DNA from: a virus
Reading direction: 5' to 3' (one strand)
IMG/VR virus record: IMGVR_UViG_3300006916_000075
Coordinates: 1 to 48,358 of that record
Length of the DNA: 48,358 nt
The position numbers and the translations under genes were made by a program. This document shows, piece by piece, positions 3,419 through 5,099 of the stretch; the stretch's first letter is position 1; each line of letters starts with the position of its first letter. The notes beneath the pieces were generated by a model. It was not told the origin of the DNA. It made no database searches and worked only from the letters and a program-made list of their open reading frames with translations.

Positions 3419-3597
3419 TCAATGAAGATTCAGATGCCATTAACAAAGAAGTAACCGAAATGGTTATCTATGCACAAGGTAGTCTGAGTTTTGCAGACGT
3501 TTGGACTATGAGTTTACCTCAAAGGCAATTAGTAGCAAAAACTATCAATAATTATTTTAAAGCAAAAGCAGGTAAACCAGTATCAGAAGATATGTAA
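3400..3597 (+). CDS. gp51-position reading frame, probable -1 frameshift extension of gp26
   Basis: Read as a separate gene this starts with GTG at 3400 and gives 65 residues. The only ribosome site, GAGGAGG at 3391-3397, sits two bases from the GTG, too close for normal initiation. The frame is open further upstream and overlaps the end of gp26 in the -1 frame, so it is better explained as the C-terminal part of a gp26 fusion of 367 residues. The sequence is helical and amphipathic, with a segment ending SLPQRQLVAKTINNYFKAK. Its position next to gp26 recalls T4 gene 51 (hub assembly catalyst, 249 residues), but it is much shorter and I see no sequence proof of homology. Its stop overlaps the next ATG (TAATG). 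Confidence 0.6.
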   Translation: MAYLRKLNEDSDAINKEVTEMVIYAQGSLSFADVWTMSLPQRQLVAKTINNYFKAKAGKPVSEDM

Positions 3598-4019
3598 TGA
3601 GTTGGTATTATAAAGACAAAGAAATATCAGAACTTCCAGATGATTGTGAGGCGTTTGTATATTTAATTACAAACCTTACAAACGACATGAAATATGTTGG
3701 AAAAAAATTAGCAAAATTCAAAACAACCAAACCTCCATTAAAAGGCAGAAAAAATAAAAGACGTGGCACAAAAGAAAGCGACTGGCGTACTTATTGGGGG
3801 AGTAGCGATCATTTAAACAACGATGTAATAGAATTAGGAGAAGAAAATTTCCGTAGAGAAATATTATATTTTTGTCCTACAAGAGGAGTTGCAAGTTACT
3901 TGGAAGCCAGAGAGCAATTCGAAAGGCGAGTACTTGAAACAGATGATTATTATAATGGAATTATCAACGTAAGGGTTGGTGGTTCTAAAATCCTTAAAGA
4001 GACCTTAAAAGACTACTAA
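3597..4019 (+). CDS. GIY-YIG endonuclease (phage homing-endonuclease type)
   Basis: 140 residues. The N-terminus carries a degenerate GIY-YIG signature: VYL at residues 21-23 and YVG at 33-35, a basic loop (about 38-58), then YWGSS at 66-70 and a GEENFRREIL helix (81-90). An EAREQFERRVL helix from about 103 probably supplies the catalytic Glu. The end, YYNGIINVRVGG, is typical of phage Hef-like endonucleases. Such enzymes cut DNA at specific sites and often spread with their own gene. The ATG overlaps the stop of the upstream frame, so it is translated with the hub genes and is not inside a visible intron. A 500-base non-coding, G+C-rich stretch follows directly. The target site is unknown. 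Confidence 0.75.
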   Translation: MSWYYKDKEISELPDDCEAFVYLITNLTNDMKYVGKKLAKFKTTKPPLKGRKNKRRGTKESDWRTYWGSSDHLNNDVIELGEENFRREILYFCPTRGVASYLEAREQFERRVLETDDYYNGIINVRVGGSKILKETLKDY

Positions 4020-4516
4020 GTAGGTGTGTTAAGACGAAAGTTAGAACACAATTCACATCAAGGCACAAACACAGGCAATACATAGGACTATACACCGGCC
4101 CCAACAGAGGCAAATTAAATCTGGCTCCTTGACAATCCGGCAATGGCAACACCCGGTGCGAGATACTGGAGATGTATAGCGGCAAATGAGATACAAACAC
4201 GACAAACAGTATTAAACGATTCAGGCTCTGAGAACAAGCAACCTGAGAATCAGTATAACTAAACTCATCTAGGTTATACAGGTTTCCGTGGGACACCAGT
4301 GACGGTAGTGTATGAGGAGTAAAGGCCCACCGCTTCTTAACAGCACCCGAGATTGAGATGATGAAGACTTCACATGATGACATCATTGTTCACCTGTAAC
4401 AGGTGAATTATGACTCCAACTTACATGATAACGGCTTTAAAAAAAAATTACAAACAAATGAAAGAGTTGAGTGAAACGAAACGATTGAATGTAGTTTGTA
4501 AAGACACGAAGTGTCT
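4020..4516 (+). ncRNA. Candidate structured non-coding RNA, family not recognised
   Basis: No credible gene lies here; the short frames on both strands look like chance. By hand count 4081-4380 is 46% G+C, against about one third around it. Perfect inverted repeats include TGTGTT/AACACA (4025-4030, 4045-4050) closing an inner helix with a GAAA tetraloop, TCAGG/CCTGA (4221-4225, 4242-4246), GTATAAC/GTTATAC (4253-4259, 4273-4279), GTGGG/CCCAC (4288-4292, 4326-4330), ATGATG/CATCAT (4358-4363, 4381-4386), TTCACCTG/CAGGTGAA (4389-4396, 4400-4407) and TTACAAAC/GTTTGTAA (4448-4455, 4494-4501). The GNRA loop and G-U pairs favour the plus strand. I could not match it to tmRNA, RNase P RNA, a tRNA or a group I intron core. 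Ends are approximate. Confidence 0.5.
4502..4516 (-). terminator. Hairpin terminator after the sulfotransferase gene
   Basis: A perfect 6-bp stem AGACAC/GTGTCT starts right after the minus-strand stop at 4518. The minus-strand loop is TTC inside C-G, similar to the UUCG-type terminators common in T4. The following T tract is weak (TTTAC), so it may be a processing hairpin, or the 3' end of the plus-strand RNA candidate. Confidence 0.45.
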
Positions 4517-4517
4517 G

Positions 4518-5099
4518 TTAAGTTTTAAACAATTCAGTAATATTAAAATCTTGAATAATTGGTTCGCTAGACCATTTAATAGGTCTTATATACTTTTCGT
4601 TAGTATCGGTATGAAAAGGTAATTCAGAAAAATCTATTAATTTACACTCAAACTTTTTAAAGTATTCTGACAAATGCATATAACCATCTTTCAGATGCCA
4701 TGTCCAATAGTCAAATTTATTCTGGTCAAGTGTTAGTGTTTCCGGCTTTTGTGGTGAACCATCCCAGACACCAGTTTCCTGTGCTATATAAAAACTTTTA
4801 ATTTGACTGTGAAAATCGTTGCGGGTCAAAATATGGATTTCATCAGCCAGTTTAAATAAATTGTGTTCTAAAAATCCTGCTCTGATAAAATTATTACGGA
4901 TATTTTTAATGTGCCAGGGAAAACATTTAAACACTACATCCGGATTGTCTGTCAGATATTCTAACTTTTGATTTTGATCTAATAAATTATATTCATATTT
5001 GCCAAAATACTCATCCAGATTTTCCAGCGAATGCTGTTTTGCTAGATATTCACAGTACCAGGTACTACCTGTTCTGGGAGTGGTAAGAATTAAAATCAT
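4518..5099 (-). CDS. Sulfotransferase-family protein
   Basis: 193 residues. The N-terminus is a hydrophobic strand followed by PRTGSTW (residues 8-14), the 5'-phosphosulfate loop of PAPS-dependent sulfotransferases. A second conserved element, the 3'-phosphate region, is plausible around the ILTRNDFHSQIKS segment, where Arg and Ser follow a hydrophobic strand. The protein is shorter than most carbohydrate sulfotransferases, so it may be a minimal domain. The ATG overlaps the gp46 stop (TGATG), making it the last gene of the gp55-gp47-gp46 operon. The acceptor is unknown; sugar or lipid of the host surface, or a virion glycan, are guesses. A hairpin terminator follows. Confidence 0.7.
   Translation of the reverse strand: MILILTTPRTGSTWYCEYLAKQHSLENLDEYFGKYEYNLLDQNQKLEYLTDNPDVVFKCFPWHIKNIRNNFIRAGFLEHNLFKLADEIHILTRNDFHSQIKSFYIAQETGVWDGSPQKPETLTLDQNKFDYWTWHLKDGYMHLSEYFKKFECKLIDFSELPFHTDTNEKYIRPIKWSSEPIIQDFNITELFKT

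Follow-up and report, generated by a model that had tools for sequence, protein, structure and literature searches.

The window analysed here is a viral DNA stretch of 48,358 nucleotides (IMG/VR record IMGVR_UViG_3300006916_000075), of which positions 4020-4516 lie between the end of a SegE-type gene at 4019 on the plus strand and the start of a sulfotransferase gene at 4518 on the minus strand (Table 1). The preliminary description, made from the letters alone, had taken these roughly 500 bases as a gene-free, G+C-rich stretch following an endonuclease gene, and all three points have been confirmed. The upstream gene is indeed of the SegE-type GIY-YIG endonuclease family and ends directly before the stretch, and the G+C content amounts to 0.43-0.47 at about 4000-4400 against about 0.30-0.37 in most flanking segments of 150 bases. 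Two open reading frames enter the region, an antisense one at 3994-4386 (130 aa) and a plus-strand one at 4410-4622 (70 aa), and neither matches a Pfam or PHROG family at E 0.1; given these familyless frames and the many insertions and deletions among relatives, a coding region has been ruled out. Translational bypass is known from T4 gene 60. Such a bypass has also been considered here and rejected, as spacing and hairpin are alike, yet no reading frame could be recognised by eye. The genes on the plus-strand side are a gp26-like gene, a small gene at the gp51 position and SegE, and those on the minus-strand side are the sulfotransferase, gp46, gp47 and a gp55-like sigma factor gene. The names gp46, gp47 and gp51 position follow the gene order of T4, and that of gp46 is additionally backed by named relatives. 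Two side observations concern the neighbours. The SegE family (3597-4019) corresponds to PHROG 447, which is labelled NAD synthetase, while Pfam gives a GIY-YIG endonuclease, and the former label has been copied into many phage records. The interval 4518-5099 and its equivalent between gp51 and gp46 in relatives form a cargo site whose gene content differs by phage, comprising sulfotransferase, radical-SAM-like, oxygenase-like, methyltransferase-like and acyl-CoA-dehydrogenase-like genes (most named by eye from sequence).

Table 1. Features of the 4020-4516 RNA and its upstream border (positions in the window)
Feature	Position	Strand	Basis and remarks
SegE-type GIY-YIG endonuclease gene	3597-4019	+	Pfam PF19835, E 5e-33; neighbour, outside the RNA
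ATAA[CG]TA-like conserved element overlapping the SegE stop	4014-4020	+	alignment; possible late-type promoter, inferred
GAAA-loop hairpin	4028-4046	+	alignment; only part of the family
A/C-rich leader, variable in length, containing GGCA repeats	4045-4080	+	alignment of relatives
Core with closing stem 4081-4085/4408-4412	4081-4412	+	helix 1, nearly invariant
5' domain, helices 4088-94/4173-79, 4105-08/4120-23, 4125-28/4168-71, 4129-40/4153-61	4088-4179	+	helices 2-5, covariation
Hairpin 4190-94/4209-13	4190-4213	+	helix 6
Hairpin with conserved loop GCUCUGAGAAnAAGCAAC	4221-4246	+	helix 7; most conserved sequence in aquatic members
Stem of 13 pairs	4248-4284	+	helix 8; 13/13 pairs double-sided; A-A at 4252/4280 in the window
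Pseudoknot 1, loop 4264-4269 with 4351-4357	4264-4357	+	helix 9
Pseudoknot 2, 4288-4292 with 4326-4330	4288-4330	+	helix 10; CC-X5 ... X5'-CGC motif, common to jumbo phages
Stems 4303-05/4347-49 and 4308-11/4343-46, hairpin 4313-19/4333-39	4303-4349	+	helices 11, 12
Direct repeat copy 1, ACTTCACATGATGAC	4367-4381	+	identity covariation
Hairpin between both repeat copies	4389-4407	+	helix 13
Direct repeat copy 2, ACTTACATGATAAC	4419-4432	+	identity covariation
Long 3' hairpin	4448-4501	+	helix 14; 7/8 pairs double-sided
Terminator-like end hairpin	4502-4516	+	helix 15

Relatives have been collected in several ways. SegE, sulfotransferase and gp26 protein queries led to 95 IMG/VR loci, a nucleotide search with 4020-4516 returned 46 loci at E below 1e-20 (35 distinct sequences), and a sequence pattern taken from the RNA alone added further loci. 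Copy counts from both pattern searches of the collection are lower bounds, and the locus tallies overlap, some contigs being present more than once. A profile search matched at least 174 of 216 loci, among the matches listed. At least 141 near-full-length copies are available, 91 of them distinct; removal at 96% identity has left 69 sequences with a mean pairwise identity of 64%, and structure counts have been made on 54 of these, chosen at below 90% identity. Comparison of the RNAs of the window and of two relatives (L024, L293) with named non-jumbo phages by blastn gave chance matches only. The core 19-mer is present in 14 bacterial genome stretches among the matches listed, which have been rejected as family members and read as chance, none of the 14 adjoining gp46, gp26 or SegE.

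The proposed structure has been drawn from helices found by conservation and covariation, without any structure given beforehand, and comprises 99 base pairs including two pseudoknots. Over the 54 sequences 95.1% of cells pair and 62 of the 99 pairs change on both sides, whereas controls in which the 3' partners were shifted by 1-3 columns have reached only 35-42% pairing cells and 18-27 double-sided pairs. Changes on both sides are found in all six pairs of pseudoknot 1 and in three of the five of pseudoknot 2. A custom R-scape-like script with a tree-based null for the 69 sequences has yielded 14 column pairs at E below 0.05, eight Watson-Crick and six not. G-U cells in paired columns number 509 against 67 A-C cells, which implies selection on the plus-strand RNA and not on the DNA. 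Both the inverted repeats and the plus-strand G-U pairs noted before are thereby real, and the compensatory changes in homologues that had been suggested as a check have been obtained. The reported GAAA hairpin near 4031-4044 exists as well, but only part of the relatives carry it. Two helices remain less well supported: only 70.5% of cells are paired in the poorly aligned hairpin at 4389-4407, in our opinion because the alignment slips there, and the closing stem is nearly invariant, so that covariation cannot test it. The fold energy of 4020-4516, for its part, is unremarkable (z -0.85), with 18 of 100 shuffles folding equally well, and the minus strand is likewise no better than its shuffles. 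Such a result had been set in advance as refuting the RNA, and this check has gone against it; we consider it outweighed by the covariation. The criterion for a conserved structured RNA, compensatory changes above controls, is met, and 4020-4516 is beyond reasonable doubt a real structured RNA on the plus strand. As a separate observation, columns 279 and 386 (4300 and 4404 in the window), outside the main repeats, covary as identity (TT 49, AA 20 of 69), which is unexplained.

With respect to known classes, 4227 Rfam 15 families, including GOLLD, ROOL, OLE, HEARO, group I and II introns and tmRNA, have given no match at the gathering threshold in the window, in six divergent loci and in four jumbo-phage loci. 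Relaxing the search of the window to E 5 produced two snoRNA models only, both outside the RNA. ARAGORN found no tRNA or tmRNA gene in the window, and the tmRNA criterion is not met. That for a group I intron is not met either, as there is no Rfam match and the flanking genes are not split. Group I introns have a P3/P7 topology, and the helix order of the RNA does not fit it. The preliminary claims that the element matches no recognisable RNA class and represents an undescribed structured plus-strand RNA have thus survived the covariance search and the covariation analysis, and that the RNA belongs to a new structured RNA class appears to us nearly certain. Novelty is claimed for the class alone; as a loose kind, large ornate phage RNAs are already known.

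As far as the relationships of the neighbouring genes can tell, gp46 and gp26 point to jumbo phages. The named phages closest in gp46 are PA5oct, Paride and their kin at 52% identity, followed by Phosso and Atu_ph07, and gp26 matches the same group. A convergent arrangement of gp46 and gp26 around an unannotated gap is likewise found in PA5oct, CBB and others, and the CBB gap sequence recurs at 162 places spread over 41 phage records. CBB itself contains five copies, which share one strand. There are five each in pEa_SNUABM_44 and Kaldavass, four each in 121Q and Hallingskeid, four plus a partial fifth (a short match) in 7t3, two clear copies plus fragments in RaK2, three in PA5oct, and one in an aquatic contig of 268 kb. 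A set of 19 distinct RaK2-like copies was chosen by the pseudoknot-2 motif itself; in these, the pseudoknot forms via CC-X5/X5'-CGC with varying letters, and the repeats match within each copy (CGTCAG, CGTCAAG, CGTCAA, CTTCAAG or GTGTCA, partly by eye); a re-scan omitted one of the 19, which the hairpin pattern had missed. The three PA5oct copies carry three different repeats (by eye), the match being loose in the 76 kb copy. The motif together with a hairpin flanked by matched repeats is accordingly met in 19 RaK2-like and three PA5oct copies (repeats partly by eye). A covariance model built from 24 aquatic sequences (R1) has found 45 matches in 49 divergent loci, a count that is partly circular since the loci were picked by a 19-mer inside the model, and no match in 17 jumbo-phage loci. 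A second model built from these 45 matches (R2) has given five matches at E 10 or better in the same 17 loci, all with weak scores, the best four of the five falling on the candidate copies of RaK2, CBB, PA5oct and Paride (E 0.0081, 0.039, 0.13 and 0.13). Based on the shared position, the shared motif, the repeats and these weak scores, it is highly probable that the aquatic and jumbo-phage RNAs form one family. No RNA has been recognised in Agrobacterium phage Atu_ph07, whose corresponding interval is full of short genes, and one unannotated 1 kb gap in Phosso shows no clear match.

Further elements have been seen beside the jumbo-phage copies. A hairpin-like element near 76950-77005 of NC_071039.1 (locus L310), next to the 76 kb copy of PA5oct, has a counterpart near the 246 kb copy, the two sharing an exact match of 32 bases. 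Several RaK2-like copies (4400-4470 in locus L313, and others) carry a hairpin with a T run that follows repeat copy 1 and precedes the main 3' hairpin; such an element would make a short and a long transcript possible. This has been seen by eye, and the terminator scan does not list the one in CBB.

The most unusual feature of the RNA is a sequence of 14-15 bases that occurs twice near the 3' end, with one copy on each side of a hairpin, and whose copies co-vary. Columns 350/404 (A or T) and 352/406 (A, G or T) are identical in 69 of 69 rows each. On a tree computed without the repeat columns these have changed about 10 and 12 times, and independent pairs are concordant in 8 of 8 (p 0.008) and 10 of 10 cases (p 0.002), respectively. 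Fixed differences between the copies, an additional C in copy 1 and a G in copy 1 that is A in copy 2, exclude simple gene conversion. The same architecture with different letters has been recognised by eye in five further loci (L075, L293, L279, L243, L258), the divergent aquatic members L279 and L258 carrying CTCATATGAAGTG/TCTATATGAAATG and CTCTGGTAATGAG/ATCTTGGTAATAAG. Loci of the L033/L030/L065 type contain matched repeats CTCACATGAAG/ATCTACATGAAG by eye only and match neither R1 nor R2. Identity covariation, in which segments are kept equal and not complementary, is a rare signal, and it predicts a single partner for both copies. Within the aquatic alignment no RNA column covaries with the repeats as their complement, the flanks contain no third copy or complement above a motif-swapped control, and 11 longer but incomplete records have no 12-of-13 match that tracks the repeat motif. 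Three contigs (L042, L160, L162), searched using CTTTCTTGATAAC, have a 12-of-13 match to their own motif about 23 kb upstream on the same strand. As a partner this match has been discarded in favour of conserved sequence, because contigs with other motifs lack such a match at one mismatch; this is a judgement only, without further test. The SegE protein has been rejected as repeat partner too, the association of its residues with the repeats being weak and phylogeny-like (z up to about 6 against 22 for a control pair).

We propose that the region is the gene for a noncoding RNA of roughly 0.5 kb, of a new class in an aquatic phage lineage, which by likely homology would extend to PA5oct-like and RaK2-like jumbo phages. 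The RNA is inferred to be independent, and an action in trans is probable, its function being unproven. The pseudoknotted core would serve as a scaffold displaying the two matched copies, and both may be docking sites for one common partner strand, an unidentified RNA or single-stranded DNA. The G of copy 1 against the A of copy 2 is what pairing with a common U would tolerate. Binding of one common partner through base pairing is nevertheless a tentative assumption, and no partner has been found. A self-assembling structural RNA, in which the repeats take part in the subunit contacts of an RNA-only oligomer, would equally be large, pseudoknotted and phage-borne, and GOLLD and ROOL form RNA cages according to the accessible part of the source (PMC12286853). 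The present RNA, however, has no Rfam match to GOLLD, ROOL or OLE, contacts would require complementary and not identical segments, and only some repeat variants look self-complementary (by eye), which leaves such an assembly possible but unlikely.

The regular presence of SegE suggests another reading, in which the RNA is the functional partner of the endonuclease and the two make up a single mobile unit, a homing element that bears an RNA. Among the matches listed, 165 of 174 loci have SegE upstream of the RNA on the same strand, usually directly before it, and the remaining nine have at most 254 upstream bases. The genes gp26/gp51 and gp46 converge on the RNA, which can have either orientation; the SegE-RNA pair runs with gp26/gp51 in at least 58 and with gp46/gp47 in at least 109 of the overlapping loci, with seven undecided. 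Its orientation relative to the flanking genes has switched at least eight times among 67 oriented sequences, at least five times on well supported branches alone, and the mutual order of SegE and RNA has stayed constant throughout. Against a module of this kind, nine of 79 new viral loci from the second pattern search (among the matches listed) show no SegE match in over 2 kb of upstream sequence and two carry SegE on the other strand, no SegE gene is annotated next to the CBB and PA5oct copies, and the weak residue-repeat association offers no help. SegE is thus not obligatory for the RNA, and we regard a joint element as improbable. The closest relative of the window's SegE, at 76%, belongs to Methylophilales phage Melnitz, where it lies behind ribonucleotide reductase and the RNA is absent; Melnitz, P-HM1, S-SRM01 and phiN3 all possess SegE without a comparable gap behind it.

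A further reading takes the structure as a cis-acting 3' element for termination, processing or stability between convergent operons. In its favour, the aquatic RNA ends a transcription unit that faces a convergent gene, and an end hairpin is present. A hairpin terminator had been proposed in the preliminary description; the hairpin at 4502-4516 does pass a loose terminator scan, but its T run is weak or broken, so that only a terminator-like structure is retained. On the plus strand of the window no sigma-70 site has been reported before the RNA, and there the RNA could be a 3' part of the SegE transcript. The conserved ATAA[CG]TA element, identified by alignment only, may represent a late promoter. 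A pseudoknotted structure of about 400 bases with matched repeats is, however, more than a 3' element needs, and the jumbo-phage copies stand at several places with promoter-like sites ahead. A TTGACA-17-N6 match precedes all three PA5oct copies (two 12/12, the third 10/12), that of Paride is 12/12, and all five CBB copies have a 10/12 match with exact TATAAT, which for single copies is equalled by 12-19 of 200 shuffles. The -35 of the CBB copies resembles the TGAAACG class described for CBB in the part of the source available (PMC5259590). The PA5oct copy near 246 kb has been deposited as putative lncRNA ncRNA004 (NC_071039.1 246116-246734), based on RNA-Seq; the other two copies have no ncRNA annotation in the record. 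We regard a cis-acting role as improbable.

Within each jumbo-phage genome the copies are co-oriented, and the RaK2-like ones are rather evenly spaced, with a CV of 0.15-0.17 and nominal P of 0.0008-0.0017 in four five-copy genomes, P of 0.027 in 121Q and 0.06 in Hallingskeid (custom script; CBB computed without its terminal repeat, the fifth 7t3 copy being a short match). As these genomes are related, this equals one or two observations and is suggestive only, and PA5oct is not even (P 0.37). A DNA-level element such as a replication origin, packaging or recombination site with an incidental transcript, to which the even co-oriented spacing and the iteron-like direct repeats might point, is very improbable in view of the G-U over A-C asymmetry, the RNA-Seq based annotation, the small number of independent spacing observations and the uneven spacing in PA5oct.

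The explanation preferred here, a new-class RNA gene whose scaffold shows two docking sites for one partner, stands as a whole at about an even balance between right and wrong. The preliminary description had missed the reach of the family into jumbo phages, the occurrence without SegE, the two core pseudoknots and the matched direct repeats. A more speculative extension, which we hold to be rather doubtful, is that these phage RNAs are of a new kind, each with a pseudoknotted scaffold that shows one short address twice, and that the addressed RNAs bind matching partner strands. If so, each paralogue in a genome could carry its own address, and the four or five RaK2-like copies may, for instance, organise or mark the giant genome or capture particular transcripts. 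A large RNA class has apparently been overlooked in culturable phages of Escherichia, Salmonella, Klebsiella, Erwinia, Pectobacterium and Pseudomonas, and with phages such as 121Q or PA5oct the question can be put to the test.

No paper on such an RNA has been found in a literature search, in which most subscription papers were out of reach, and the accessible portions of PMC9004378, PMC7029224, PMC2988022, PMC12286853, PMC13282480, PMC6892783, PMC10215021, PMC5259590 and PMC7760394 do not describe it. Like GOLLD and ROOL, as portrayed in what is accessible of PMC12286853, the RNA is large, noncoding, pseudoknotted, phage-encoded and of unknown function. Unlike them, it has no Rfam match, lies by gp46/gp26 instead of in a tRNA island, and has matched repeats flanking a 3' hairpin. 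PA5oct ncRNA004, annotated from RNA-Seq, likely belongs to the same family, and its record is silent on structure, family and any relation to other phages. HEARO and OMEGA-type RNAs are structured RNAs next to a nuclease gene. The same arrangement is met here, but with another class of nuclease, without an Rfam match, and with an RNA that also occurs without the nuclease. The T4 Seg genes have hairpins at ribosome-binding sites and not a large downstream RNA, as far as the accessible part of PMC2988022 goes; what the locus has in common with the T4 Seg homing modules is the SegE-family GIY-YIG gene that adjoins this RNA.
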